Below are positions 3,781 to 16,367 of a stretch of DNA of 20,639 nt, in pieces; the stretch's first letter is position 1; each line of letters starts with the position of its first letter. The DNA is from a virus, in the IMG/VR virus record IMGVR_UViG_3300025141_000976, positions 1 through 20,639 of that record, one strand, 5' to 3'. The position numbers and the translations under genes are program-made. Below the pieces are notes generated by a model that was given only the letters and a program-made list of their open reading frames with translations, searched no databases and was not told the DNA's origin.

Positions 3781-4011
3781 ATGGAACTCGCACTACTTCA
3801 GAAGCAAAACGAAAACCTCACCGAAAAGCTTGCTGCCGCCGAATACACAATGTCGGAGCAGCTTCAAACCAACCTTGAGATGCAGGCGGAGCTTGACCAC
3901 CTGAAGGACGTGGTGAGCAACCTTACCCGCCGACTGCGGCGAATGGAAGATGCCTTCAGGGCTGCAAACAAACAGCGCAATGAGCTAATCCGTCAGACGG
4001 TCGGCCAGTAA
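3781..4011 (+). CDS. Small coiled-coil protein, 76 aa
   Basis: The start ATG at 3781 follows a weak purine-rich TAGAGA. An in-frame GTG at 3766 is possible but has no ribosome binding site. Almost the whole chain is a predicted coiled coil with heptad leucines and methionines (MELALLQKQNENLTEKLAAAEY, LQTNLEMQAELDHLKDVVSNLTRRLRRMEDAF), ending in a basic tail. Short phage coiled-coil proteins serve as spanin-like, scaffolding or oligomerisation factors. There is no membrane anchor here, which speaks against a spanin. The gene lies 31 bp after the 173-residue gene and just before the palindrome-rich island at 4015-4128. Confidence 0.65.
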   Translation: MELALLQKQNENLTEKLAAAEYTMSEQLQTNLEMQAELDHLKDVVSNLTRRLRRMEDAFRAANKQRNELIRQTVGQ

Positions 4012-4014
4012 ACT

Positions 4015-4128
4015 TAGTTACTAGTTAACTACTATACGTAGACTAGTTAACTTAATTAACTCTCTTTAGAGAGCTTATGCAGTCTAGTAAACTTAACTAA
4101 GAGACTTAGACTAGTTAACTTAAGCTTA
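4015..4128. repeat. CTAG- and palindrome-rich non-coding island
   Basis: This AT-rich gap between two genes holds four variants of a unit close to GACTAGTTAACTTAA, near 4018, 4041, 4081 and 4108. It is packed with 6- to 8-bp palindromes: ACTAGT, GTTAAC, TACGTA, TTAATTAA, CTTAAG and AAGCTT. A tight hairpin has CTCTCT and AGAGAG arms around TT (about 4060-4073). All plus-strand frames are full of stops. A minus-strand frame stays open here with codon pairs like those at 15640-15793. The Shine-Dalgarno AGGA of the next gene sits in a mini-hairpin loop (AGCTT 4123-4127, AAGCT 4131-4135). The function is unknown. Confidence 0.6.
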
Positions 4129-4141
4129 GGAAGCTGTCCAG

Positions 4142-5629: not shown

Positions 5630-5759
5630 ACATCCCATCAAATAGGGTCTGTGAAGTAGGATATTTTTTAGCGAGAGGGGTTTATCTTTAGTTTTATTAC
5701 CCACGGGGGGGCGGGGGCGCACCCAGGTAGACCCCGCGCAAGCTCGTTCGGCCTGCCAT

Positions 5760-5869
5760 GTTCCGCCCTGTTCCATTCCGTTCCGTGACGTTCCATTCTG
5801 TACCGTTCCGTTGCGTTCTATTCTCGGGGGTTTTGCCCTGTTCCATTGGGTTCCGTTGTGGACTGTTCC
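5760..5869. repeat. Degenerate GTTCC array in 5-nt register
   Basis: Exact GTTCC words start at 5760, 5770, 5780, 5790, 5805, 5840, 5850 and 5865. Every interval is a multiple of five, and the first four lie 10 bp apart on one helical face. Variants fill the register (GTACC 5800, GTTGC 5810, GTTCT 5815, ATTCT 5820). A 13-nt exact repeat, GCCCTGTTCCATT, occurs at 5765-5777 and 5835-5847. It could be a decayed short tandem repeat or a phased protein-binding array. Confidence 0.7.
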
Positions 5870-6121
5870 CTCGTATGGTTTGCCGGGAGTCTCAAACGGT
5901 ACGCAAGCCCCCTGTCCTGTACATGCACACCTTGACCTCCCGCCTATTGCCATCGTTAGGCCGTCTTGCTTGGCTTGTGATGCCTTGCAAGGGGCTCGCC
6001 TATGGTCCTGGTAAGGTCTACGCCCGACAAGGGGCTTAGAAGGCCATTGTGAGGCTATCTGGCTGGATACCTCGTAAGGCTCGGAACATAGAGCCGTTCT
6101 GGCCCTGGATTCCAGGCGCAG

Positions 6122-6176: not shown

Positions 6177-7352
6177 CTATGCCACTGTGAATGCTTGCCC
6201 TGCAATCACTACGCAATCAACTGCCTCACTACTCGTTTTCATCATCGCAAGGAGCGCCTCCAACGGCAGCGCTACAGCGCCATCGGTAGACACAGCTTGT
6301 TGTGACAGGACAAGCGCTTTGTGTTCCGCGATCCGTTCTTGAATGGCATGCGCTGCCATGTAGTCCTGACTTGCAAGCGCCGTCTCAAGCTCAAGCTCAA
6401 GCTCGTTCAATTCGTCGGCTTGTTCCGTAGTGGCTTGGGGCTTTTGGATTGCCCTTGCCTTGTCATCCAAGTCCTTGCGAATAGCGGCGATACGAGCCGA
6501 CTCCTCGGAAGCTTGATGGGCTCCAAGAAAGTCCTCTCTCGCTATGGCTTGCGCCTTGCTATCAGCCAGACCTTGGAGTCGTGCATCGCACTGCACAATA
6601 GTCGTAGGGTCTACGCTGTTCTGTTCTGTGGCTGGTGCCGGTGCCGGTGCCTCGGATACCGCTGCGATGTTGTCACGTTCCAAGCCAAGCCAGTTAGCGA
6701 GAACGCCGCAATTGTTCTCTCGGATAATGGACCTCCAGTGCCCTTTGTGTTGTGCAATGGGGTCGGCACCTTTACCCGGTGCCTCGGGCAAAGCTTTGTA
6801 GACTTTGCCTGTGTTCCCAGGTTGCGAGAACGAGCCCGGAGTTCTGCCATGTGTGAGGCGCTGCCTACGCTTGTCGGGATCCGCCTTTGCCTCCGCCGTC
6901 GTGATTGCCAGCAGGTCAAGCAATTGCCCGATTGACTTTGCAACGACGTTCCCCGTTCTGTAGCAGACGATTCCATTCTGCCCGGTGATAGCGGGGGTTC
7001 CTGGTGCCGTCAGGATATCGAGCAATGCGGCATTGCACTGTGCAATATGTGCGGTTTGCTTTGCTATCCGTGTAGCCGGGGCCGATAGCCATGGTTGGAT
7101 CATGGCTTGCAACATGTCCTTGTGTCCTTGTGTAATGGTGTTCATGTTCTCTATTCTCCACGTTCCCTGTGAATGGTTGAAACAGAATGTTTCGATGCGG
7201 GGCCTGGGAACGACGGCACCCGCAATTAAAGGGTGAGAATCGGTTGAATTGTGGGTGTTTATAATGAATGACCGTTCACTTATGAGCCTAAGTTCCTGTA
7301 ATCTATCAGGAATAAACCTTGTAAAGTTTATGTGTGCATGTTCTGTTGACAT
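6177..7352 (-). CDS. Protein with two UVR-like motifs, 391 aa
   Basis: The frame is open up to ATG 7448. I prefer ATG 7352 (MSTEHAHINFT) because ACAGAACA follows codon 2, as in three other genes here. ATG 7145 (MNTITQGHKD) with GGAG is a good shorter alternative. Residues about 314-350 (ELELELETALASQDYMAAH, then AIQERIAEHKAL) match the UVR motif of UvrB/UvrC, ClpC and McsA, a helical hairpin for protein contact. A weaker copy lies at about 254-295 (QAIAREDFLGAHQASEESA). The N-terminal half is helical and soluble, with a Pro/Ala linker near 235-245. No nuclease or ATPase motif is seen. It may bind a host protein, but the partner is unknown. Codons between 7145 and 7352 (AGG, ATA, TTA) differ from the rest. 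Confidence 0.65.
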   Translation of the reverse strand: MSTEHAHINFTRFIPDRLQELRLISERSFIINTHNSTDSHPLIAGAVVPRPRIETFCFNHSQGTWRIENMNTITQGHKDMLQAMIQPWLSAPATRIAKQTAHIAQCNAALLDILTAPGTPAITGQNGIVCYRTGNVVAKSIGQLLDLLAITTAEAKADPDKRRQRLTHGRTPGSFSQPGNTGKVYKALPEAPGKGADPIAQHKGHWRSIIRENNCGVLANWLGLERDNIAAVSEAPAPAPATEQNSVDPTTIVQCDARLQGLADSKAQAIAREDFLGAHQASEESARIAAIRKDLDDKARAIQKPQATTEQADELNELELELETALASQDYMAAHAIQERIAEHKALVLSQQAVSTDGAVALPLEALLAMMKTSSEAVDCVVIAGQAFTVA

Positions 7353-7357
7353 GGCAA

Positions 7358-7400
7358 GTTCCAACTCCCGTTCCGTTGTGGGTTCGGGAGTGGAACCCAC
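7358..7400 (-). promoter_or_regulatory. Two mutually exclusive hairpins in leader of the UVR-motif gene
   Basis: On the minus strand GTGGGTTC (7400-7393) pairs perfectly with GAACCCAC (7385-7378) around the loop CACTCCC. Alternatively GTTCCACTCCC (7396-7386) pairs with GGGAGTTGGAAC (7369-7358) with one bulged base. The two cannot coexist, and the second would sequester the GGGAG and GGAAC upstream of ATG 7352. This is a possible RNA switch or thermometer. If translation really starts at 7448 it lies inside coding sequence. Confidence 0.45.
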
Positions 7401-7429
7401 TATGTTGCATGGCGTTACACGCTTAGGGA

Positions 7430-8101
7430 TTACGTGTGCCTCGACCATCCCTGATGGTCACCAATAGACACGGAGAACACCTCGCCACCTCCCGGTCCAC
7501 GGTATAGCAACGCGCCACTCATGGCGTATGCATAGCGTTGTGTGAACGAACAGGGTTCTGTTACAAACACAAAGCCTGGGGCGACGAAGTAGTGTTCCTT
7601 CGTGAGCTTGTCGTTTACGTTACGACCCGGCCAATCACGGGCTGTTGCAGGGCTTATGTACCTGTACCAACACAATCCGAAGCAACCGAACAACCCATCG
7701 TCGTGCAATACAATACGATAGTTCTGTACATTCGTTACGTGTTCCGCCGAACCCTCGTCTACAGCGTTACCATGCCGGTCTACCGCAAGGTCACCACCGT
7801 AATCCGCAAGGTCTTGCAAGTTATCATGCAAGTCCTTTGCAAGCTTCAGCGCAAGCAGTCTATGTTCCGTTAGCGATAGAGCAGTGAGCCATCCCGCAAT
7901 GGTGCAATACTTTGCGATAGCGTTCTGTTCCATGGTGAGTCTGGGATATTGCACTTCGCAAGCGGCATACGAGTACCCATAGCACACGTCAATGACCTTG
8001 CTAAGAGCAGTCTCCTGTTCCTGTTTGTTCGCAGCATCCAAGCATTCACGGCAGTACATGTAACCGTGCTTGCATGTTTGTTCTGTTTGTTCTGTGTTCA
8101 T
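7430..8101 (-). CDS. Hypothetical protein with N-terminal Cys/His cluster, 223 aa
   Basis: ATG 8101 has AAGGA 6-10 nt upstream. The N-terminus reads MNTEQTEQTCKHGYMYCREC, with Cys10, His12, Cys17 and Cys20, a compact possible zinc site. Residues about 60-100 are helical (AKYCTIAGWLTALSLTEHRLLALKLAKDLHDNL). The C-terminal half is richer in aromatic and Gly residues (GLFGCFGLCWYRYISP, HYFVAPGFVFVTEPCS), without a clear membrane segment. No enzyme family is recognised. It sits between a 26-residue membrane peptide and the UVR-motif gene. McsA-type proteins join Cys zinc sites and a UVR motif in one chain, and here the two features lie on adjacent genes, which may be coincidence. Confidence 0.65.
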   Translation of the reverse strand: MNTEQTEQTCKHGYMYCRECLDAANKQEQETALSKVIDVCYGYSYAACEVQYPRLTMEQNAIAKYCTIAGWLTALSLTEHRLLALKLAKDLHDNLQDLADYGGDLAVDRHGNAVDEGSAEHVTNVQNYRIVLHDDGLFGCFGLCWYRYISPATARDWPGRNVNDKLTKEHYFVAPGFVFVTEPCSFTQRYAYAMSGALLYRGPGGGEVFSVSIGDHQGWSRHT

Positions 8102-8107
8102 GGTTTG

Positions 8108-8139
8108 TCCTTGCCTCGTTTACCCGCGAGGCATCGGGT
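8108..8139 (-). promoter_or_regulatory. Competing hairpins abutting the ribosome binding site
   Basis: On the minus strand TGCCTCG (8133-8127) pairs with CGAGGCA (8118-8112) across 8 nt, and the last A is the first base of the Shine-Dalgarno AAGGA (8112-8108). A second hairpin, ACCCG (8139-8135) with CGGGT (8126-8122), holds the TGCCTCG arm in its loop, so only one can form at a time. Confidence 0.45.
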
Positions 8140-8152
8140 TGGTGATTGTTTG

Positions 8153-8233
8153 TTAGACGATTGATGATGCGATTAGATACAAGAATCCGAATAGGAATAT
8201 GTAATACCAGAATGGCCATTGTTCTGTTCCCAT
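8153..8233 (-). CDS. Very small single-span membrane protein, 26 aa
   Basis: ATG 8233 overlaps the stop of the 140-residue gene (TAATG), a coupling signal used repeatedly here. The peptide MGTEQWPFWYYIFLFGFL then YLIASSIV is one aromatic-rich transmembrane helix of about 20 residues after a short polar start. Its opening, ATG-NNN-ACAGAACA, is shared with the genes at 8101, 7352 and 11027. Phage peptides of this size act as lysis regulators, superinfection-exclusion peptides or membrane-protease inhibitors. Nothing here selects between these. The reality of the gene rests on coupling, shared start context and hydrophobic composition. Confidence 0.55.
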   Translation of the reverse strand: MGTEQWPFWYYIFLFGFLYLIASSIV

Positions 8234-8655
8234 TACACTCTCGCGCTGTTGTAGAGGTGAAGAGCAATCTCTTCCGACTCTTTACGACATGCCTTGTCTA
8301 AGCCATCCGAGAACTCTGACGGGCTGTTCTTCGTTACCATGCTACCAATGCGTTTGTAATAGACAGCGCTCTTACGCAAGAGGAATCGGTATTCCTGTGC
8401 TTCGTTCTCGTGGTTCTGAATGATTGCGTTGAGGTGCTGGATTTCCTCGTATTGTTTCGCCGCAAGTTCTGTTTCGGGATTGAACGTAGCCTTGTGTTCG
8501 CAAAGTTCTTCAAGAAGATCCGCAATCTCATCTCGTTCTGTTCCGGCCCGGTATCTTGGGTCGTTGGATAGGTTCGCAAGTAGCGATTCAATCCCTCGCA
8601 TAAGGTGTGTATATTCCGCCTCGCTTACGTTTATCATGATTCCATTGAGTGACAT
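8233..8655 (-). CDS. Hypothetical helical protein, 140 aa
   Basis: ATG 8655 is preceded by AAGGA about 9 nt upstream and a 57-nt leader from a likely promoter at 8719-8747. An alternative ATG lies at codon 7 (MINVSEAEYTHL). The chain is almost all helical and charged (IADLLEELCEHKATFNPETEL, QYEEIQHLNAIIQNHENEAQEY), with probable coiled-coil content and a C-terminal helix (GLDKACRKESEEIALHLYNSARV). There is no cysteine cluster or membrane segment. Its stop overlaps the start of the 26-residue membrane peptide, so the two are probably made together. The function is unknown. Confidence 0.65.
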   Translation of the reverse strand: MSLNGIMINVSEAEYTHLMRGIESLLANLSNDPRYRAGTERDEIADLLEELCEHKATFNPETELAAKQYEEIQHLNAIIQNHENEAQEYRFLLRKSAVYYKRIGSMVTKNSPSEFSDGLDKACRKESEEIALHLYNSARV

Positions 8656-8718
8656 ATTGTGTGTCCTTGTGTATTGTGCTTTGTTCTGGCCGCTGGCTGG
8701 ATTGCCGGAGCCACGAGT

Positions 8719-8747
8719 AGTATAACACGCTGGCTAAGTACTTGAAA
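8719..8747 (-). promoter_or_regulatory. Extended -10 promoter for the 8655 operon
   Basis: On the minus strand TATACT (8724-8719) is preceded by TG one base upstream (TGTTATACT), an extended -10 element. TTTCAA (8747-8742) lies 17 bp upstream as a weak -35. The predicted start is near 8712, giving a leader of about 57 nt. The near-palindrome AAGTACTT (8737-8744) overlaps the -35 region and could be an operator. Confidence 0.5.
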
Positions 8748-8841
8748 TCCCTATGCTTTCAGCGGCGAGCCACCCCCTGGTAAGCAGGACAGAACTTCAT
8801 CGCGTAATGTATGTGAGTATATACGATAACGTGTAGCGTAT

Positions 8842-8869
8842 CGTGTGTGTATGTGTGTGCGTATGCGTA
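8842..8869. other. 28-bp alternating purine-pyrimidine tract
   Basis: Every step from 8842 to 8869 alternates pyrimidine and purine (mostly GT repeats with TA and GC steps), the type of sequence prone to Z-DNA or easy unwinding. A dyad, ACGATA (8823-8828) with TATCGT (8839-8844), overlaps its left edge. It lies in a 296-bp gene-free stretch (8656-8951) between a terminator and a promoter. An origin or supercoiling-sensitive control site is possible. Confidence 0.5.
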
Positions 8870-8885
8870 ATCGCAAAACGAGAAA

Positions 8886-8925
8886 GCCCCGGAACCGCAA
8901 CGCTCGCACGCTACAACTCCGGGGC
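8886..8925 (-). terminator. Intrinsic terminator-like hairpin
   Basis: GCCCCGGA (8886-8893) and TCCGGGGC (8918-8925) form a perfect 8-bp GC-rich stem with a 24-nt loop. On the minus strand the stem is followed by TTTCTCGTTTT. It lies 27 bp past the stop of the 100-residue gene and would separate that transcript from the promoter at 8719-8747. Confidence 0.65.
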
Positions 8926-8951
8926 CTATTGAGATACACGCTTAGGGAATG

Positions 8952-9254
8952 TCAATCGTAAGAGGCTACACAACTAGACCCAAACTTGCGATCCGTTTGT
9001 ACGATTACGTTTGAGTCTTCAAACGTTACAACGCATCGTTCCTCTGCCATGTCCTTGATTACACCGGCTGGAAGATTGGGCCATGTTCCAGCCAATAGGT
9101 ACATGCGGCTACCAATCGTGGTGCCATCCTCGTCAAGACCGACACCTCCCAATGACATTGCAAAGTTGTATGCACCTTCGGCATGAAGCCCAACCGTGAT
9201 TGTCTTCTCATCGCCAGTTGTTGGAACAGATTCCAGAACGAATGTTGCTCCCAT
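8952..9254 (-). CDS. Hypothetical beta-rich protein, 100 aa
   Basis: Two ATGs in a row follow GGAGG. The second (9254) has the better spacing and overlaps the upstream stop as TGATG, so it is preferred. The protein (MGATFVLESVPTTGDEKTITV) has alternating strands and turns (GVGLDEDGTTIGSRMYLLAG, ERCVVTFEDSNVIVQTDRKF) and ends SSCVASYD. It appears to be a small soluble beta protein with no recognised motif. It is the last gene of a coupled trio (9864, 9667, 9254) and is followed by a terminator hairpin. Confidence 0.65.
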   Translation of the reverse strand: MGATFVLESVPTTGDEKTITVGLHAEGAYNFAMSLGGVGLDEDGTTIGSRMYLLAGTWPNLPAGVIKDMAEERCVVTFEDSNVIVQTDRKFGSSCVASYD

Positions 9255-9667
9255 CATGCACCTCCCGTTGGGCCAGTAGCAGGCTCAATAGGCCAACCCT
9301 TTTCGGAACAGTTCGCATCGTATTGTTCCTTTGTGGAACCCATGACCCATGTGTATCCACAACCAATGGGAGTGAACAGAACCTTCAAGCTCATGAAACA
9401 CAAACAACGAGGACATCGATAGATGGGTTGTTCCATTTCCACCGGGTTCTCAATATCTGTGATATCCAACTGCCCTTCGCAACTTGACGCTACCAAGTTC
9501 GGGTTCACATCAGTTGCTTGGATTACACTTACAAGTCGACCGCAAGTATTGTTTGGGCAATTGATTAGTAGGTTTGCTTCCTGCCATATCTTGAACACTT
9601 GCCTAACGAGTTCGTTGTTTGAGTGTTCACCTTCGGAAATGCTTTTGTAATACTCGATGGAGTCCAT
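9254..9667 (-). CDS. Cys-rich, probably zinc-binding protein, 137 aa
   Basis: Start ATG 9667 is the second of two ATGs after GGAGG and overlaps the previous stop (TGATG). Cysteines lie at 37, 42, 63, 85, 88, 90 and 103. CPNNTC (37-42) and CPRC (85-88) would make a split zinc ribbon around a strand-rich insert (LVSVIQATDVNPNLVASSCEGQLDITDI). The N-terminal 35 residues are helical (IEYYKSISEGEHSNNELVRQVFKIWQEA). This looks like a small zinc-ribbon adaptor or nucleic-acid-binding protein, with no specific family recognised. The junction sequence at its start is repeated exactly at the start of the next gene. Confidence 0.65.
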   Translation of the reverse strand: MDSIEYYKSISEGEHSNNELVRQVFKIWQEANLLINCPNNTCGRLVSVIQATDVNPNLVASSCEGQLDITDIENPVEMEQPIYRCPRCLCFMSLKVLFTPIGCGYTWVMGSTKEQYDANCSEKGWPIEPATGPTGGA

Positions 9668-9864
9668 CATGCACCTCCACTTGTCAGCATCTTAGAACGT
9701 GAGCGTTGTGCTGCTTGTGTGAACCGACCACGGTGGAACCTCGGGTTCTCCTGTTGGCAGAAGTCACCGAGCTTTACGACGAGCGTATCGAATGTCTTTC
9801 GTTCCATTGGAACGGAGCCAGCAAGCTCCGCAATCTTTATGAAGTCTACTCTTGTGAGTCCCAT
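9667..9864 (-). CDS. Small conserved-type phage protein, 65 aa
   Basis: ATG 9864 follows AGGAAC. The chain has a helix (DFIKIAELAGSV), then FDTLVVKLGDFCQQENPRFHRGRFTQAA. The pattern of a helix, ENPRF and basic-RF-x(2)-A is common in uncharacterised short phage and plasmid proteins of 50-70 residues (ENP-F-R-RF motif), for which no function is established. Only one cysteine is present. It opens a coupled group of three genes (9864, 9667, 9254). Upstream is a 99-bp gap with two sets of hairpins. Confidence 0.65.
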   Translation of the reverse strand: MGLTRVDFIKIAELAGSVPMERKTFDTLVVKLGDFCQQENPRFHRGRFTQAAQRSRSKMLTSGGA

Positions 9865-9870
9865 GTTTGT

Positions 9871-9898
9871 TCCTGCCTTGTAAACCGTAAGGCTACGG
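9871..9898 (-). promoter_or_regulatory. Competing hairpins abutting the ribosome binding site
   Basis: On the minus strand GCCTT (9893-9889) pairs with AAGGC (9879-9875), which directly precedes the Shine-Dalgarno AGGA (9874-9871). A competing hairpin, CCGTA (9898-9894) with TACGG (9889-9885), has GCCT as its loop and shares bases with the first arm, so the two are exclusive. Stems are only 5 bp. Confidence 0.35.
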
Positions 9899-9915
9899 GG
9901 GTTTGTGTTAAGGGT

Positions 9916-9945
9916 GAGGCATCTATTCGGATACGGACATGCCTC
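9916..9945 (-). other. Intergenic hairpin after the 277-aa gene
   Basis: GAGGCAT (9916-9922) and ATGCCTC (9939-9945) are perfect 7-bp arms with a 16-nt loop, 18 bp past the stop at 9964. No U run follows on the minus strand, so this may be a processing or stability hairpin rather than an intrinsic terminator. Confidence 0.4.
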
Positions 9946-9963
9946 CCTGTTCCGTGATGTGAT

Positions 9964-10797
9964 CTACTTGGTGCTTTCCAATCCGTAGTTACGAACCGCG
10001 TCATTCAACACGTCGCTGATTGAGATGGGTTCATCCGTAAGGATGTCCTTCATGATGTCGGTCAAAGCGAACACACGGTCTTGCATTTTGTTGAATGCTA
10101 TCGTGAGTTCTTCCTTTGCATTGAGCGCATCCCTAAGCAAATCATCCTGCGGGGCCTGTAGCTTTGCAATGATTGCATTGAGGTCACGTTCCGTTTCATG
10201 TGCAGCCTCAAGCCGTGCCGCGTATTGCTTGGATAGCTCCGTAGAGGCATCGCCTCTTGCTTTCGATTCCACACCTTCCATCAGCAGCTCTGCTACCTTC
10301 GCAAGAAAGAACACAGGGTCTTCTGTTCCCGCTGCCTCCATGTAGCTCGCAATGATATCGCAACCATCAAGGCTAACCTCCTTGCTGAAATCGATACTCG
10401 GCCCATGGTACACCTCGTTATGCAGGTCAACCGTTACATCGATATCAACGTGTGTATCCTCGACACTGATCGAGGTACTTACCTCGTGTTCCGTTGAGTA
10501 GTTGTCTGCAATCTCATACTCAAGACCCTCAAATACTACCTCGTGTTCAATGGAATATGGGTAGTTGTTGAGCATACGTCTGAACACGGTTTCATTCGTA
10601 AGCCCCTCCCTACCCACAAGGTCGGAGAGCAAACTGCTATGCATCTTTGCCCGTTCCGCCTTGTCTCCAACGGAACAAATGCTATCGAACACATTGCAGA
10701 CATTGTTCGCAACTGTTTCGCGTTGCGTTCTCAAAGTCTCCTTCTGTTCGTCGGTGAGTTCTTGTGATTGGGTTGTGCTGTCTTGTGATTGACCCAT
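9964..10797 (-). CDS. Hypothetical protein, 277 aa
   Basis: ATG 10797 is preceded by AAGGAG at good spacing. The N-terminus is Gln/Ser/Thr-rich and then helical (ELTDEQKETLRTQRETVANNVCNVFDSIC). The centre (about residues 80-135) is acidic and strand-like (VVFEGLEYEIADNYSTEHEV, TSISVEDTHVDIDVTVDL). The last 130 residues form long charged helices, probably coiled coil (ELSKQYAARLEAAHETERDL, LNAKEELTIAFNKMQDRVF). There is no cysteine cluster, Walker motif or membrane segment. The shape suggests an oligomeric protein, with no recognised function. It lies below a 46-residue membrane protein and is preceded by a hairpin ending at its ribosome binding site. Confidence 0.65.
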   Translation of the reverse strand: MGQSQDSTTQSQELTDEQKETLRTQRETVANNVCNVFDSICSVGDKAERAKMHSSLLSDLVGREGLTNETVFRRMLNNYPYSIEHEVVFEGLEYEIADNYSTEHEVSTSISVEDTHVDIDVTVDLHNEVYHGPSIDFSKEVSLDGCDIIASYMEAAGTEDPVFFLAKVAELLMEGVESKARGDASTELSKQYAARLEAAHETERDLNAIIAKLQAPQDDLLRDALNAKEELTIAFNKMQDRVFALTDIMKDILTDEPISISDVLNDAVRNYGLESTK

Positions 10798-10802
10798 GAG
10801 GG

Positions 10803-10827
10803 CTCCTTGTTCCGTTACGCCGGAACA
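10803..10827 (-). promoter_or_regulatory. Hairpin abutting the ribosome binding site
   Basis: On the minus strand TGTTCCG (10827-10821) pairs perfectly with CGGAACA (10814-10808) across a 6-nt loop. The last A of the stem is the first base of the Shine-Dalgarno AAGGAG (10808-10803) of the 277-aa gene. The arms carry the GTTCC/GGAAC word that is frequent in this genome. Confidence 0.5.
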
Positions 10828-10886
10828 TACGTTTGTTGTGAAAGATAGGCAGTTTGGGAACGTACCCAGGTTCTTTCGTTGGTTGG

Positions 10887-11027
10887 TCAGTTACCTTTGT
10901 AAAGCAACATGAATGCCGCAAGCTGTCCGAACACATAGAAGCGGAACCCAAAGAGCCCGCCGATGTCCATGCCAAACATGCAGAACAAACACGATGCAAT
11001 CGCAAAGGTCTTCTGTTCTGTTGTCAT
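10887..11027 (-). CDS. Small membrane protein, 46 aa
   Basis: ATG 11027 overlaps the stop of the 512-residue gene (TAATG). The peptide is hydrophobic: MTTEQKTFAIASCLFCMFGM, then DIGGLFGFRFYVFGQLAAFM and LLYKGN. That gives two likely membrane-spanning segments (about 8-27 and 29-43) with a short polar link. Its first codons (ATG-ACA-ACAGAACA) share a start context with the 26-residue peptide at 8233 and with the genes at 8101 and 7352. It could be a holin-like, exclusion or anti-host membrane peptide, and the sequence does not decide. Both visible small membrane genes of this operon sit in the same coupled position after a soluble protein. Confidence 0.55.
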   Translation of the reverse strand: MTTEQKTFAIASCLFCMFGMDIGGLFGFRFYVFGQLAAFMLLYKGN

Positions 11028-12565
11028 TACTCGGATGCACGAGCGAACAACGGAACAAGCTTCCCGGCTTCGCTTTCAAGTTGGGCGCGTTCCGACTCGG
11101 AGAACTTTCCTTCCCAAGCTGCACGGGTCATCGCATTGATCAGGGCGGCTGGTGTGTCGCCTTGTTCAAACTTGTACCCGTTCAACAGGTTCTCTTGGAG
11201 AACCTTGCTTGAGATGTTCTTCCCAATCTTCTCGTTCTCAACAGCCCACACGAGGGCTTCCTCAACGGTGCCAAATGTTTGGCCCCACATCTCAACGTCA
11301 TCGATGAGTGTGTTCGCAAGAACACCCCAATCATCGAGGATAGCTGACATGCCTTCACGAACCTTGCGGGTTGCCCCGATAAGTTCCGTTTCAATCTGTG
11401 CCATATCGCCCCAATGACGAAGCTGAACCATCGGTGCATAGTCTTGTGCAACGATGAGCAGGTTCAAACACAGGTTGCGATAGACGATGCCACCTCCACG
11501 CAAGGAACCGGCACCGCTATCGTTCGTGCGGAATCGGAACCCAGCCTTGAAGAAGTCACCTGCCGCAAGGTTACGAGGACGTTCATCCGGCATCCAGATG
11601 CAATCAACCTGTACGTTTGTGGACTCCGGGTTGTAAGTCACTTGAGCCCTGGAATCTTTCAAGGCACTGGATGAACCGACGATTGCTGCGATCTCGTTCG
11701 CATCAACCACGGTGTAGCCGGGACTTACAGTTGCAAAGAGGGAACGCTTCCCTTTGTTCACACGAGTACGCAACTTCAACGTAAGTTCCTGGTCTACCTT
11801 GCCAGACATTTCGTTGAACACATGAGCCCTCAAGTCGGGTTCCATACGTGCCATCACGGGACCAGCACTCGGGAACACTTGGTTCCCACGAGCCGCCTTG
11901 CCACTATGGGATTCCACCCCGTAGTCTTCGGAAGCTTCCATGCGGAACTTCGACAACAGGTTTGCAAAGGCGCGACGTTCAACCGTGATGTTCCCGTAAC
12001 CAGGAATCACCAGCCTACCGTCATCGTCCATGCAAAGGTCACGAGCCTTGGCTGTCAAGTCAACGCGCTCTTCCTGTTCAACGTTCTTTGCAAGAGACTC
12101 CCAAGCCTTCGATGCTTCGGGAAGTGTTTCCCATTCGCTACGAAGTTCTGAGAAACGATTGTCACCATAGTCGATGACTCTCGTTCCCTTCGCATAGACA
12201 GGAGGCGTTGGTTCAAAGCCCATTGCACGAAGCACTGCCTCGTGTTTATCAATGCGCTCGATTGCCTCCTCACTGATCGTTCCGCCCTTTGCTTCGGGAA
12301 CAGCGTTCGGTGCTGGGTCACGAACGAATACATCATGACTCGGTTGCGAGTCCATAGTGATCGCAACGACATCGGATGGTTTGAGTCCAACGTTCGCAAG
12401 TACTCCGTATTGTTCCTCGTAGTCAGAAATCTTCATGACCCGGAGTTCCGGTGCAAAGTCCAGCCTTGCGTAAGCAGCCATCGCGGCTTGTGGATTGGGG
12501 TACTTTACAGGTTCTTGCGTGATGACATTGTAAAGTACCATTTGTGGTGGTTGTTGTACTGACAT
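11027..12565 (-). CDS. DUF932-like phage/plasmid protein, 512 aa
   Basis: I chose ATG 12565 (MSVQQPPQMVLYN) for its AAGGAG 7 nt upstream. The longer frame to 12646 has no ribosome binding site. Residues about 262-300 (LKLRTRVNKGKRSLFATV, then SPGYTVVDANEIAAIV) and 345-372 (FRTNDSGAGSLRGG and YRNLCLNLLIV) recall the DUF932 phage/plasmid-related family, where a similar strand, 'Y', 'N-S/D-G-sal' and 'yR-l-C-N' order occurs. The function of that family is not settled. The N-terminal third is mixed and charged, and the C-terminal 130 residues are helical. It is the first gene of the large minus operon, with its own promoter-like sequence and leader hairpins. The family call is by eye. Confidence 0.6.
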   Translation of the reverse strand: MSVQQPPQMVLYNVITQEPVKYPNPQAAMAAYARLDFAPELRVMKISDYEEQYGVLANVGLKPSDVVAITMDSQPSHDVFVRDPAPNAVPEAKGGTISEEAIERIDKHEAVLRAMGFEPTPPVYAKGTRVIDYGDNRFSELRSEWETLPEASKAWESLAKNVEQEERVDLTAKARDLCMDDDGRLVIPGYGNITVERRAFANLLSKFRMEASEDYGVESHSGKAARGNQVFPSAGPVMARMEPDLRAHVFNEMSGKVDQELTLKLRTRVNKGKRSLFATVSPGYTVVDANEIAAIVGSSSALKDSRAQVTYNPESTNVQVDCIWMPDERPRNLAAGDFFKAGFRFRTNDSGAGSLRGGGIVYRNLCLNLLIVAQDYAPMVQLRHWGDMAQIETELIGATRKVREGMSAILDDWGVLANTLIDDVEMWGQTFGTVEEALVWAVENEKIGKNISSKVLQENLLNGYKFEQGDTPAALINAMTRAAWEGKFSESERAQLESEAGKLVPLFARASE

Positions 12566-12571
12566 GTTCTG

Positions 12572-12613
12572 CTCCTTGCGACCTATTGTGAATGAAAGAT
12601 GCTGGCTGGTCGC
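12572..12613 (-). promoter_or_regulatory. Leader hairpin abutting the ribosome binding site
   Basis: On the minus strand GCGACC (12613-12608) pairs with GGTCGC (12583-12578) across 24 nt, and AAGGAG (12577-12572) follows with no gap. The GACC of the 5' arm can instead pair upstream in an 8-bp stem, GGCTGGTC (12644-12637) with GACCAGCC (12611-12604), if transcription starts far enough upstream. This is again a mutually exclusive pair. Confidence 0.45.
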
Positions 12614-12627
12614 TTCCCAACAAACCC

Positions 12628-12656
12628 TACTTATCGGACCAGCCAAGCCCTGTCAA
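12628..12656 (-). promoter_or_regulatory. Promoter-like sequence for the 12565 operon
   Basis: A perfect TTGACA (12656-12651, minus strand) is followed 15 bp on by GATAAG (12635-12630), or 17 bp on by TAAGTA (12633-12628). The predicted start is near 12620-12624, at the centre of the dyad GGCTGGTC/GACCAGCC (12604-12611 and 12637-12644), which could be an operator. The -10 is poor and its spacing is uncertain. Confidence 0.4.
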
Positions 12657-12677
12657 ATCGTCAGTGATTTCAGGTAC

Positions 12678-13589
12678 TTAGCTGGTCGGTCTGGTGTCTT
12701 GAGTAGGCTCTGAACCCCCTACGTGATTATGTGTTTCCGCGCCTAATATGTTATTCATATCATCTGCACATAACCCACCTATCATATCTATTGGTATATC
12801 GCGTATGTTAGATTCGTTTATCATGCGTACGTATTGATTACGAAACGTGCGCTCGATGCTACCGTTCGCGTTCCAATCCGTTGTAAATCCCTGACCCCAC
12901 CACTCGGGGCACAACCTGGATAGCAAGGTCACTGCTCGTTGATACACCGTTAGCGATATCTCTCGATTCATGAGAGGGATACGATGCTCAAGCAACGAAC
13001 CAAACTCTATGAGTTGCGCCGCTTCATCTGCTTCTAATGCGAGCACAAGGCTGACCATCAATGCGTGCTTTGTGTCGGGGGCTGCTGGCTTTAGCAAATC
13101 AAACTCACGCCATGCTTCGCAGATGCCTCGTGCATAATGGCGTGCTGTTCTTGTGTACCCAAGGGACGCAGCGTCAACGATTCGTTTGTTGACCAGTGCC
13201 TTCACAATCTTTCGATACCGAATGTTTGCAGAATGCGTAGCCTTAGCTTCCGGCACTGTTGTAAGCTTGTCGCCTATGTCTCTCGCAACCATGTCTGCCC
13301 ATTGGCGTTTACCACGAGCATCCAGTAGTTCAGGAGACGATACACGTATAGAAAGTTTGCGTCCTGGGAATACCCACAAGCGACCCCGCACACCCAGAAA
13401 GATTTCTCTACGCCCAACGATTACGCCAATGAAGTACGTTCGGATTCCTATTTGCAATAGGCCCGCGTTGATTATGGGGAAGCGTTTCTTTTCCTTTCCG
13501 CTTACGATGGTAGCCCACCCGAGTGGTTCACCGTAATCGGAATGCGGTATGCGCCCGCGCTGGTATGGTTTACGACAAACTATTTTCAC
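12678..13589 (-). CDS. Hypothetical protein, 303 aa, in repressor operon
   Basis: The frame starts at GTG 13589, overlapping the XRE gene by 20 bp, and the Shine-Dalgarno match is weak. The N-terminal 90 residues are basic and strand-rich (GWATIVSGKEKKRFPIINAG, YFIGVIVGRREIFLGVRGRL). The rest is helical (ATHSANIRYRKIVKALVNKR, LMVSLVLALEADEAAQLIEF). There is no HExxH, so it is not an ImmA-type protease, and no recombinase catalytic set is seen. Codon use (ATA, AGA, TAT) is more AT-rich than in the operon to the left. Co-transcription with an XRE repressor suggests a role in immunity or lysogeny control, which is inference only. Confidence 0.6.
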   Translation of the reverse strand: MKIVCRKPYQRGRIPHSDYGEPLGWATIVSGKEKKRFPIINAGLLQIGIRTYFIGVIVGRREIFLGVRGRLWVFPGRKLSIRVSSPELLDARGKRQWADMVARDIGDKLTTVPEAKATHSANIRYRKIVKALVNKRIVDAASLGYTRTARHYARGICEAWREFDLLKPAAPDTKHALMVSLVLALEADEAAQLIEFGSLLEHRIPLMNREISLTVYQRAVTLLSRLCPEWWGQGFTTDWNANGSIERTFRNQYVRMINESNIRDIPIDMIGGLCADDMNNILGAETHNHVGGSEPTQDTRPTS

Positions 13590-13824
13590 GATGACTCACG
13601 GTATTCAAATCCAACAAAGAAGTTTCCAGAAGGCGCAGCAGATGGGGTGTGGAAGGCACCCTATCGCCGCTCTCCCAGAAGCTGTAGGCTGCCTGACTGA
13701 CCCCTACTTCTCTGGCCGCCTGTGCCTGGGTAAGGCCCGCTTCCAGCCTACATCGGCGGAGGGTTGAGGGTATGCCAAAATCTGTCCGGGGTATGGTTTG
13801 TTGTTGCCTGTCCATGCCCCCCAT
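13570..13824 (-). CDS. XRE-family (Cro/CI-type HTH) repressor, 84 aa
   Basis: Residues about 20-68 (LRRCRLEAGLTQAQAAREVG, then VSQAAYSFWESGDRVPSTP) form a standard five-helix XRE DNA-binding domain with the LTQAQAA and VSQ-A-S-W signature. There is no C-terminal peptidase domain, so it is a small Cro-like protein. ATG 13824 is used, and ATG 13815 is an alternative. On the minus strand TTGACC (13865-13860) and CATAAC (13841-13836), 18 bp apart, predict a start near 13829. That leaves almost no leader, as in the leaderless cI transcript of lambda. The operator-like dyad at 13826-13840 overlaps this promoter, so autoregulation is likely. It diverges from the helicase gene. Confidence 0.8.
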   Translation of the reverse strand: MGGMDRQQQTIPRTDFGIPSTLRRCRLEAGLTQAQAAREVGVSQAAYSFWESGDRVPSTPHLLRLLETSLLDLNTVSHRENSLS

Positions 13825-13825
13825 G

Positions 13826-13840
13826 ATAACTGGCTGTTAT
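13826..13840. promoter_or_regulatory. Operator-like dyad between XRE repressor and helicase
   Basis: ATAAC (13826-13830) and GTTAT (13836-13840) flank TGGCT, in the 66-bp gap between the divergent starts. On the minus strand it overlaps the -10 CATAAC of the repressor promoter. On the plus strand GATAAC (13825-13830) lies 18 bp after TTGTTG (13801-13806). A repressor bound here would block both promoters. The dyad is visible in the sequence and its ligand is inferred. Confidence 0.5.
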
Positions 13841-13890
13841 GGAGGCGGCAAGTCTTCGGTCAAACCAACAACCCAAAATGGGAGAACATT

Positions 13891-15231
13891 GTGAGCACAG
13901 CAGTTGACATAGAACGCAACCTACTTGCGACTCTACTTATGAATGGTGGTGCCGGTCTGGATGAAACAGAAGACCGCTTACAACCTGTCGATTTCGCATC
14001 TGACCAGCATCGTCAGATTTACCTTTGGGTACTTGGGAAGGTACGCGACAAGAAAGTTCCAGACTTCTCGATTCTTCTTAGCGAGAACGGTGATTGCGTA
14101 CCATTCGGTGGCGTCTCGTATTTGCAATCCCTTGTAAGCTACGCTGGACCCAAGGCTAGTGTACCTACGTGGGCTAATCGTGTTCACGATGAGGCTCGTG
14201 TTCATCGTATTAGGCACGCTGGTCAGCAAATCGTGGAGCTTACAAACGAGCACACGTTAGAGGCTTCTGATATCGCTGTAGAATCCGAGAAGATTATTCT
14301 CGATGCAACGTCTGACAAATCGGGAGAGGGGCCACGCCCAATCTCGGAACTGATTCACAATCGCATGAACGAATGGGACTTGATTCGTACTGGAGAAATG
14401 CTTGAATACTACCCGTCTGGTTTCAAGTCTTTCGATGATGCGTACATTGGCTGGCCGAAAGGATACCCGGTCATCATTGGCGGAAGAACAAAGATGGGCA
14501 AGAGCATGTTTATGCTTAGCGCTGTGCTTCGTGGTGCTTACGCAGGAGTCCCGCAGGGTATCATCTCGATTGAAATGCCCGCGTCAACGTTGATGGACCG
14601 GCTTGCTTCTATTCGTTCCGGCATTCCGGCTAACGAAGCTCACGGTTCTGATGTCGATAAACGAGAGAAACTTTACGATGCATTACGTGAAGTGAACAAG
14701 CTTCCCATTTCTGTTGATGATGCATCACGACATGTTGAAACGATTGAGTCTTCTGTTCGTAGGATGTCCAGGCGTTACGGAGCCAAGGTCATCTGGCTTG
14801 ATTACATGCAGCTTGTAAGGCCCACACGACTTGCGAAAGAGCCGGGGTCTTGGGCAGAGCTTGATGAAATCTCCGATTCGATTCGTGCTATTGCGAAGTC
14901 AGAAAACGTTTGTATCGTATCAATGATGCAGTTCAATCGTGAAGGAGAGCACCGCTCCACGGATGGCAAGCGTGGTTACCCATCGACCACCGCATTCCGG
15001 GGCTCTGACAAGCCCCTGTTCGACGCTGCGATTGCCTTTGGCCTATACCGTCCATGGCACTATCAGGCTCCAACAGACGAGGATACTGGCGATACGATAT
15101 CGGACACCACACAAGCTACGATGCGTCAGCCTTTGGACTTAGTTTGTTTAGCTTGTAGATACGCACCGCCAAAGAATCTTCACATGAAGGCAACGCTGGC
15201 AACCCAACGTCTTTACGACGAGTTGGATTAG
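13891..15231 (+). CDS. dnaB: Replicative DNA helicase, DnaB type, 446 aa
   Basis: GTG 13891 with GGAG 6 nt upstream is preferred. The longer frame to 13798 would cross the operator region. The N-terminal domain (VDIERNLLATLLMNGG and DRLQPVDFASDQHRQIY) matches DnaB. The RecA-like core has Walker A GGRTKMGKS at about 197-205, ISIEMP at 225-230, Walker B VIWLDYMQL at 300-308 and QFNRE at 347-351. Then come FRGSDKPLFDAA and LACRYAPPKNL, where Arg423 is the likely arginine finger. The length matches DnaB. It unwinds the replication fork ahead of the phage polymerase and would act with the DnaG-type primase at 20077. The 3' end overlaps a minus-strand gene by 116 bp. Confidence 0.93.
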   Translation: MSTAVDIERNLLATLLMNGGAGLDETEDRLQPVDFASDQHRQIYLWVLGKVRDKKVPDFSILLSENGDCVPFGGVSYLQSLVSYAGPKASVPTWANRVHDEARVHRIRHAGQQIVELTNEHTLEASDIAVESEKIILDATSDKSGEGPRPISELIHNRMNEWDLIRTGEMLEYYPSGFKSFDDAYIGWPKGYPVIIGGRTKMGKSMFMLSAVLRGAYAGVPQGIISIEMPASTLMDRLASIRSGIPANEAHGSDVDKREKLYDALREVNKLPISVDDASRHVETIESSVRRMSRRYGAKVIWLDYMQLVRPTRLAKEPGSWAELDEISDSIRAIAKSENVCIVSMMQFNREGEHRSTDGKRGYPSTTAFRGSDKPLFDAAIAFGLYRPWHYQAPTDEDTGDTISDTTQATMRQPLDLVCLACRYAPPKNLHMKATLATQRLYDELD

Positions 15232-15793
15232 TGATTGCCCTTGAGAACTCCGGTCTTCCACCACGTTGAGCGAGTTCGATAGCACACTCCCCCTCTCCCC
15301 TTACGTCGTAAAGCAAATCACTGTTGGGGTATAGCGAGATTGCCTCGTGTATCTCAAACTCTTCCGATAGTATTTCCCAATAGGTAAAGTCAGAAACAAA
15401 CTCAATAAACGATATCCAACGAGGGCTACCTTCCGTACGCATCTCACGCATTGAATCGAAGTAAGTATCCATTGCGTTACTCACAACCTCAACCCACTCG
15501 TCGTTATGAGTGGCATACATTTCAACACAAAAGTCAGTGACCATTCGCAACTGACCAGAAGTTCTTACAGTCACGATAGGGGACCGGAACTTCCAAGCAA
15601 AGTAGAGCTTCCTCAATAAAGGATCTCTAACCATATGTTTCTCATATCTAGTTCTAGCTTCTCTAGAATAACTAGACTTAAGAATTCCTAGTCTTCTAGT
15701 AACTACATTGAAGCTTCTAAACTTAAGAATACTAGTTCTAGTTAGTTTCTTAGGAACTCTATAGTTAGGTAACTTATTAGATTTACTAGGCAT
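15116..15793 (-). CDS. Hypothetical protein, 225 aa, antisense to helicase end
   Basis: This is the only sensible frame for the 590-bp gap between helicase and the next plus-strand gene. It ends inside the helicase gene, a tail-to-tail overlap of 116 bp. ATG 15793 has no clear Shine-Dalgarno. A later ATG, in MVRDPLLRKLYFAWKF, is possible. The first 50 residues are very basic (MPSKSNKLPNYRVPKKLTRT, ILKFRSFNVVTRRL). The rest is mixed, with aromatic helices (FIEFVSDFTYWEILSEEFEI). Codons change sharply: the first 55 or so use NCT, AGA, AGT, CTA and TTA, and later ones are more GC-rich. The gene may be a late insertion or mosaic. No family is recognised. Confidence 0.5.
   Translation of the reverse strand: MPSKSNKLPNYRVPKKLTRTSILKFRSFNVVTRRLGILKSSYSREARTRYEKHMVRDPLLRKLYFAWKFRSPIVTVRTSGQLRMVTDFCVEMYATHNDEWVEVVSNAMDTYFDSMREMRTEGSPRWISFIEFVSDFTYWEILSEEFEIHEAISLYPNSDLLYDVRGEGECAIELAQRGGRPEFSRAITNPTRRKDVGLPALPSCEDSLAVRIYKLNKLSPKADAS
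15640..15793. repeat. CTAG-rich tract at start of the antisense gene
   Basis: About nine or ten CTAG tetramers fall in 154 bp, where chance would give less than one. TCTAGA, ACTAGT, CTTAAG, GAATTC and AAGCTT palindromes are also present. On the minus strand CTAG falls almost always across a codon boundary (NCT AGN) and never as an in-frame TAG. The island shares its words with 4015-4128. Confidence 0.6.
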
Positions 15794-15819
15794 TTGACAG
15801 GTTAGCTACAGGGTGTTAC

Positions 15820-16080
15820 ATGGTAGGTAGAATCGGGAACAAGGTTCAGGTCTTCATCGCATATTGCGATACCAGTTTGCTGGCTCTTTCCCGTGAGTCA
15901 GACGTAAGCAGCATAGAGCTAACGAGGATTGTAAACGGGAACCGCAAGCCAAGTCGAGGAGTAAGAGAACGTATTGCAAAGGCAATGAACATCACGCTGT
16001 CCGAACTTGATTCGGACCTGCAGGTTTTTACAAGCGCAATCAAGCGCAATCAAGGGAGGCCAGAATGGCTGAAGAAGTAA
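15820..16080 (+). CDS. XRE-like HTH protein, 86 aa
   Basis: ATG 15820 has AGGG 7 nt upstream. Residues about 20-64 (SLLALSRESDVSSIELTRIV and NGNRKPSRGVRERIAKAMNI) fit an XRE domain: a helix with S-RESDVSS, a recognition helix followed by NG-RKPS, and a last helix ending NITLSEL. There is no second domain. It begins 27 bp from the divergent antisense gene start, so it may control that gene as well as the operon it heads. A TTGACA box (15794-15799) lies in the gap, but any start 17 bp beyond it would fall inside this gene, so I do not call a promoter. The 3' end overlaps the next HTH gene. Confidence 0.7.
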   Translation: MVGRIGNKVQVFIAYCDTSLLALSRESDVSSIELTRIVNGNRKPSRGVRERIAKAMNITLSELDSDLQVFTSAIKRNQGRPEWLKK

Positions 16081-16310
16081 TACAACTCACACCCGTAACT
16101 CCAGAAGAGTTTGTGCGTGTGTGGCAAACATGCAGAACGGTAGGCGAGGTAGCCAACAAGCTAAACCTTACGAAGCGTGCTTGTTACCAGCGTGCTGTTG
16201 CGTATCGCAAGAAGGGCGTTGCCCTAAAGAAGTACCCAGTGGGTAGGCACGGTGCCCATCACGATATCGATTACGCATCACTTGCCTCGCTAGCCCGATC
16301 ACTTTCATAA
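16065..16310 (+). CDS. Small HTH protein, 81 aa
   Basis: ATG 16065 lies in the end of the XRE gene with GGGAGG upstream. Residues 13-57 (PEEFVRVWQTCRTVGEVANK, then LNLTKRACYQRAVAYRKKGV) match the short HTH protein common in phages: an aromatic helix, V-EVA-L, a recognition helix with RA-Y-RA, then RKKGV-LKK. The C-terminus is short and polar. It probably binds DNA as a regulator, with targets unknown. It is coupled to the XRE gene and followed by a 62-bp gap with a hairpin. Confidence 0.7.
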   Translation: MAEEVIQLTPVTPEEFVRVWQTCRTVGEVANKLNLTKRACYQRAVAYRKKGVALKKYPVGRHGAHHDIDYASLASLARSLS

Positions 16311-16329
16311 ACCATAATCCTTTGAGTGT

Positions 16330-16367
16330 TGCTCACCTCTCATTGGATTCTTTTACGTGAGCAGGAG
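16330..16367 (+). promoter_or_regulatory. Hairpin abutting the ribosome binding site of the Rad52-type gene
   Basis: TGCTCAC (16330-16336) and GTGAGCA (16357-16363) are perfect 7-bp arms with a 20-nt loop. The final A is also the first base of the Shine-Dalgarno AGGAG (16363-16367). A smaller TGAG/CTCA pair (16323-16326 with 16332-16335) competes for the 5' arm. It resembles the hairpins before 8101, 9864, 10797 and 12565. Confidence 0.45.

Follow-up and report, generated by a model that had tools for sequence, protein, structure and literature searches.

Why should short inverted repeats in several gene leaders of one phage end where the Shine-Dalgarno (SD) sequence begins, and do they act as RNA? 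The question is raised by an IMG/VR virus fragment of 20,639 bases from an unclassified phage, the whole of which we call the window. Its recognizable genes encode a DnaB-like helicase (13891), an Erf/Rad52-like annealing protein (erf, start 16373, plus strand), a Cas4-like nuclease (17628), an SSB-like protein (18593) and, as judged by eye, an XRE-type regulator; a long minus-strand gene block occupies 6177-13589, and most of its products are of unknown function. The following five leaders, named by the start positions of their genes, carry the stems.

8101, minus strand: stem TGCCTCG/CGAGGCA with a loop of 8 nt; gene of 223 aa, unknown function
9864, minus strand: stem GCCTT/AAGGC, 5 bp, with a loop of 9 nt; gene of 65 aa
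10797, minus strand: stem TGTTCCG/CGGAACA with a loop of 6 nt; gene of 277 aa
12565, minus strand: hairpin GCGACC-24 nt-GGTCGC at 12578..12613, adjoining the SD AAGGAG (12572-12577); gene of 512 aa
16373, plus strand: hairpin TGCTCAC-20 nt-GTGAGCA at 16330..16363, sharing one A with the SD AGGAG (16363-16367); erf

All five stems described in the initial annotation are present in these places, and the 3' arm of each ends right before the SD or has one A in common with it. The annotation had counted five notable cases of 5-7 bp; this holds for the four stems of 6-7 bp but not for the 5-bp stem of 9864, which is not significant alone. The geometry it called constant is so at the SD boundary but not in the loops, which are long before 12565 and 16373 (24 and 20 nt). 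The five stems and their SD contexts all differ in sequence. Each stem is part of the nested minimum-free-energy fold of its own leader, with z-scores against dinucleotide shuffles of that leader of -3.5 (8101), -1.7 (10797), -1.1 (16373), -0.8 (12565) and -0.2 (9864). Because only the 8101 leader clearly exceeds the stability of its own shuffles, it is where the stems are placed, and not overall stability, that carries the signal. The stems do not read as intrinsic terminators, as on the sense strand they are followed by the SD and no U run, and a terminator search at the five leaders gave weak antisense matches only. No credible match to the window was found in Rfam 15, where the sole hit was a 15-bit chance match elsewhere, so that no known riboswitch or leader family is indicated.

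The position of the stems was evaluated in the 13 uncoupled window leaders with an SD, counting stems of at least 6 bp and defining abutting as within one base of the SD. The initial annotation had assumed about seven uncoupled leaders, which is too few, since we count approximately 13-17. Its view that the SD boundary is not a chance position in the window was borne out: four abutting stems of at least 6 bp were seen vs 0.28 expected from shuffled leaders, with none of 200 shuffles reaching four, and vs 0.48 expected from the density of stems in the noncoding sequence of the genome (P ~0.0016). For stems of at least 7 bp, three were seen vs 0.18 expected from noncoding density (P ~0.0009). 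Among the coupled genes of the window, 0 of 10 had an abutting stem of at least 6 bp.

Several other elements of the window were noted. A strong intrinsic-terminator-like hairpin (8884-8927, minus strand) lies between the genes 8952-9257 and 8233-8655. The noncoding stretch between the convergent gene blocks harbours, at 5750-5870, an array of the word GTTCC(A/G)T(T) with a 10-nt period and six 27-nt copies in register. Two A+T-rich regions (4005-4130 and 15640-15790) are dense in CTAG/TTAA words and contain CTAGTTAACTTAAG-like imperfect 31-nt repeats, one before a plus-strand gene and the other at the start of the minus-strand gene 15116-15793.

The initial annotation had treated the abutting structures as simple stems. 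The stems exist, but in the 8101, 9864 and 10797 leaders a better reading, at the sequence level, is an H-type pseudoknot with the abutting stem as its stem 2, while bases just upstream pair with the loop of that stem to give stem 1. The 8101 leader, in the order of the mRNA, is composed as follows.

8135..8139, minus strand: stem 1, 5' strand ACCCG
8134, minus strand: loop 1, a single A
8127..8133, minus strand: stem 2, 5' strand TGCCTCG, the left arm of the initially annotated stem
8122..8126, minus strand: stem 1, 3' strand CGGGT, with a loop 2 of 0 nt
8119-8121, minus strand: loop 3, AAA
8112..8118, minus strand: stem 2, 3' strand CGAGGCA, with one A common to the SD
8108..8112, minus strand: SD AAGGA

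With stem 1 in square brackets and stem 2 in braces, this leader and the other two candidate pseudoknots read:

8101: [ACCCG]a{TGCCTCG}[CGGGT]aaa{CGAGGCA}AGGA
9864, 9872..9898, minus strand: [CCGT]a{GCCTT}[ACGG]tttac{AAGGC}, then the SD AGGA
10797, 10808..10832, minus strand: [ACGT]a{TGTTCCG}[GCGT]aa{CGGAACA}, then AGGAG; one G-U pair in stem 1, the final A belonging also to the SD AAGGAG

The three are unrelated in sequence and alike in architecture, with a loop 1 of one A, a loop 2 of 0 nt and a loop 3 of 2-5 nt. In the pseudoknot of the T4 gene 32 leader, loop 1 is likewise a single adenosine and crosses a 7-bp stem 2. Stem 1, which is left out of nested folds, would add approximately -6 to -11 kcal/mol of stacking; counting against a pseudoknot, the 2-3 nt of loop 3 are few to span a stem 1 of 4-5 bp. 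The 12565 and 16373 hairpins form no tight pseudoknot. Loose pairings are possible there (TTGT/ACAA before 12565; AATCC at 16316-16320 with GGATT at 16345-16349, plus strand, before 16373), have long loops, were judged to be within chance and are not claimed.

An unbiased scan of both strands (41 kb) found 14 tight H-type pseudoknots, three of which abut an SD vs ~0.03 expected from their density. As the 9864 SD was located within the stem by the automatic SD finder, the automatic density test itself lists two at an SD. The architecture was fixed after the window had been seen, which makes its window P value optimistic, and tests on other sequences therefore weigh more. On balance, we lean slightly towards a pseudoknot as the abutting structure in these leaders.

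Close relatives of the window were found neither in INPHARED, by DNA or with the proteins P0001 and P0008, nor among GTDB genomes; single-protein scans of IMG/VR with P0001 and P0006 were empty, and an ortholog scan (A2) for the 8101 gene returned none, leaving no orthologs of the 8101 leader for comparison. The relatives used here come from alignment scans with the Cas4-like nuclease and g12678m. Among them is L003 (contig G001, 53 kb, 66% G+C), a distant relative that has its gene order in common with the window at a protein identity of 36-51%. Inspection by eye and a program both identified stems 0-2 nt from the SD, all differing in sequence, in five early leaders of L003. Interleaved helices are present here as well:

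L003, larger pseudoknot: [CCCCCGTGCAGC]acc{GCACCC}ac[GCTGCACGGGGG]acacaaccc{GGGTGC}acGGAG
L003, second larger pseudoknot: [CCCCTG]ttcgga{CCGGCC}gacag[CAGGGG]tcaaccact{GGCCGG}atGGAG
L003, third pseudoknot, found by eye before a very short ORF: [CCACGGGG]gtt{TGCACTC}aa[CCCCGTGG]gcacaacacc{GAGTGCA}cGGAG
L003, tight pseudoknot in the leader of the ortholog of the 12565 gene: [CGG]a{CTGGG}[CCG]gac{CCCAG}AAGGAG

The first two, with stem sums of 18 and 12, were unequalled in 20 shuffles each of 62 leaders. Sequence-level interleaved helices also occur in L042.

Evidence for pairing comes from erf, whose SD-abutting stem is found not only in the window but also in L050, L056, L072 and L074. In the four aligned leaders of these relatives, three of the six pairs of the abutting helix show two-sided compensatory change and 96% of cells pair, while slid controls, with the partners shifted by 1-3 columns, gave at most one two-sided pair. 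Compensatory change in related leaders, which had been proposed as a check, is thus found in at least one orthologous leader, and it argues for a structure and against an operator of fixed sequence. Stem 1 of erf has 3 bp and is kept in three of the four leaders, L050 being the exception; one pair has a one-sided change and two pairs are lost in one sequence. The neighbouring promoter dyad behaves in the opposite way, as five of its seven pairs never vary. A good sigma-70 promoter precedes erf in L050, L072 and L074, with the predicted +1 at the structure or immediately before it, so that these leaders would consist of little beyond the structure and the SD. The region before erf is a divergent promoter region (L056 8771-8851, L072 7552-7632, L074 7559-7639, L050 7618-7698), in which the dyad GATAGCCnnnGGCTATC, largely conserved in sequence in the four relatives, lies between -35 and -10 of the erf promoter and is likely a repressor operator for erf and the divergent small gene.

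Across the 570 leaders of the relatives, stems that have 6 bp or more and a loop of 3-9 nt form a peak at offsets -1/0 from the SD (15 vs ~4 expected), whereas 765 control leaders from T7, T4, TM4, N4, lambda, HTVC010P, phiKZ, SPO1, CRP-13 and unrelated IMG/VR contigs have no such peak (5 vs 6 expected). Taken over all relatives, this excess is modest, and an energy-based profile around their SDs did not peak sharply at the SD. SD-abutting stems are nearly absent from the closest relatives, G003 and L039, which indicates that the trait has been gained and lost; the earlier suggestion of a device used as one rule was overstated. In G005-G007, tight-loop hairpins abut the SD and leave no room for stem 1. 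As a separate observation, an identical GATTGC-aaa-GCAATC hairpin is located one base before the SD at L087 11310 and L084 18894 (minus strand), within the final coding part of the preceding gene, and similar triloop hairpins occur at L082 296 and L087 11465.

Outside the window, six tight pseudoknots at the SD occur in approximately 2,100 leaders, taken from relatives and from unrelated phages, vs ~1.4 expected from other offsets. In a strict density test, the unrelated phages alone gave 4 vs 0.64, including candidates in N4, SPO1 and HTVC010P. A separate marine-phage control of 749 leaders had no SD-abutting pseudoknots, and a general claim across phages is therefore weakly supported. That SD-abutting H-type pseudoknots are a general, sequence-independent initiation element evolved repeatedly by tailed phages appears doubtful to us, and the tight pseudoknots beyond this clade are a lead, not a result.

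Several other explanations were considered. The leaders might contain simple SD-adjacent hairpins, with no pseudoknot, that block 5'-end-dependent decay and keep the SD open, similar to those of ompA, papA and aprE. The tight-loop stems of G005-G007 fit this idea, as does the L050 erf leader, which with its predicted +1 at the hairpin would be hairpin and SD alone, and 5' hairpins are known to stabilize bacterial mRNA (PMC3997798). However, simple hairpins leave the interleaved stem 1 of the three window leaders and of L003 unexplained, and the search for sigma-70 promoters at the five window leaders gave no clear start beside the stems, whose genes may be operon-internal; we consider this explanation rather unlikely. 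A second view takes the repeats as DNA dyads, operators of transcription factors that lie beside the SD as promoters sit close to the start codon. Dyads are indeed present at phage promoters here, namely GATAGCCnnnGGCTATC in the erf promoter of the four relatives and, at 12603-12645 of the window, the nine-bp dyad TGGCTGGTC/GACCAGCCA around a TAAGTA -10-like element before 12565, with TTGACA 17 nt upstream; the latter overlaps the 5' arm of the 12565 hairpin and is a possible operator. Yet one repressor cannot bind five stems that have no common sequence, interleaved dyads with a 1-nt spacer suit an RNA and not a dimeric protein, and the abutting stem changes by compensation, unlike the promoter dyad, making an operator function of the stems very unlikely.

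Chance, together with the picking of striking cases in the initial annotation, ranks slightly lower again: the numbers are small, the stems are absent from the closest relatives and most per-leader energies are unremarkable, but the counts exceed those in shuffles, in noncoding sequence and in unrelated phages and were replicated in a second phage (L003) and in an orthologous set (erf), and we regard this explanation as already disfavoured. Least probable in our assessment are translational operators, structures to which a phage protein would bind to stop translation. The model is the leader of gene 32 in T4 and T2, where an H-type pseudoknot with coaxial stems, located 67 nt upstream of the start, is bound by gp32 in autorepression and is accompanied by an A+U-rich spreading region (PMC3014915). 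Tight H-type leader pseudoknots recall this operator, and one gene here encodes an Erf-like annealing protein; the structures described here, by contrast, adjoin the SD and have no region of this kind, and most of the genes have no known function. Gene 32, possibly the sole viral pseudoknot in autoregulation of translation according to a 2010 review (PMC3014915), has a single operator far upstream.

Other known leaders are comparable in part. A pseudoknot upstream of the ribosome-binding site is needed for translation of repZ in ColIb-P9/IncI-alpha (Asano and Mizobuchi 1998, as summarized in PMC8383071); its position resembles that of the window elements, but in that summary it is a single copy under antisense RNA control, whereas those of the window are short, occur several times per genome and have no known antisense RNA. 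The tisB leader pseudoknot promotes initiation via S1 (PMC7708055) and that of timP aids translation even when the SD is open (PMC11228461). Both serve type I toxin control (PMC7708055, PMC11228461), and the tisB standby site is ~100 nt upstream of the RBS (PMC7708055), whereas the window structures touch the SD. The SAS/ESAS elements of Cluster K mycobacteriophages are inverted repeats right upstream of the ribosome-binding site of many genes per phage (PMC3203893, PMC7302621); the ESAS are 17-bp repeats conserved in sequence, for which hairpins are little supported according to the authors (PMC3203893), whereas the window stems and SD contexts vary in sequence and the pairing is kept. The 5' stem-loops of ompA, papA and aprE also are leader hairpins upstream of the SD (PMC3997798). 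Such stabilizing stem-loops are defined by their position at the mRNA 5' end (PMC3997798), which is predicted here for the L050, L072 and L074 erf leaders. The window elements are a new variant among known leader pseudoknots.

The stems thus are quite likely a real RNA element and probably a functional structure, as judged from position and covariation, and their recurring shape and position suggest a structural device for the control of translation or of mRNA lifetime. In the reading we propose, about which we are evenly divided, SD-abutting H-type pseudoknots would be cis-acting elements of the mRNA leader, selected for shape and not for sequence, that present the SD or shield the message. 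From 5' to 3', stem 1 would be followed by a loop of one adenosine that crosses the deep groove, then by stem 2, the second strand of stem 1, a short loop and the second strand of stem 2, which would lead directly to the SD. We infer that these structures fold in cells into a compact coaxial rod, whose end at the SD would keep the SD single-stranded and on display, where, as in the tisB, timP and repZ leaders, it might serve to dock the 30S subunit or ribosomal protein S1; the rod may also protect the initiation site from nucleases on its upstream side. The most likely role would be presentation of the SD, promoting initiation or protecting the message, and we propose such a positive role in initiation or stability only tentatively. 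Searches for regulatory RNAs usually rely on sequence conservation and would miss a device at the SD that is defined by geometry only. Leader pseudoknots are rarely exemplified in phages, and several copies in one phage would offer a natural series on how structure adjacent to the SD affects initiation.
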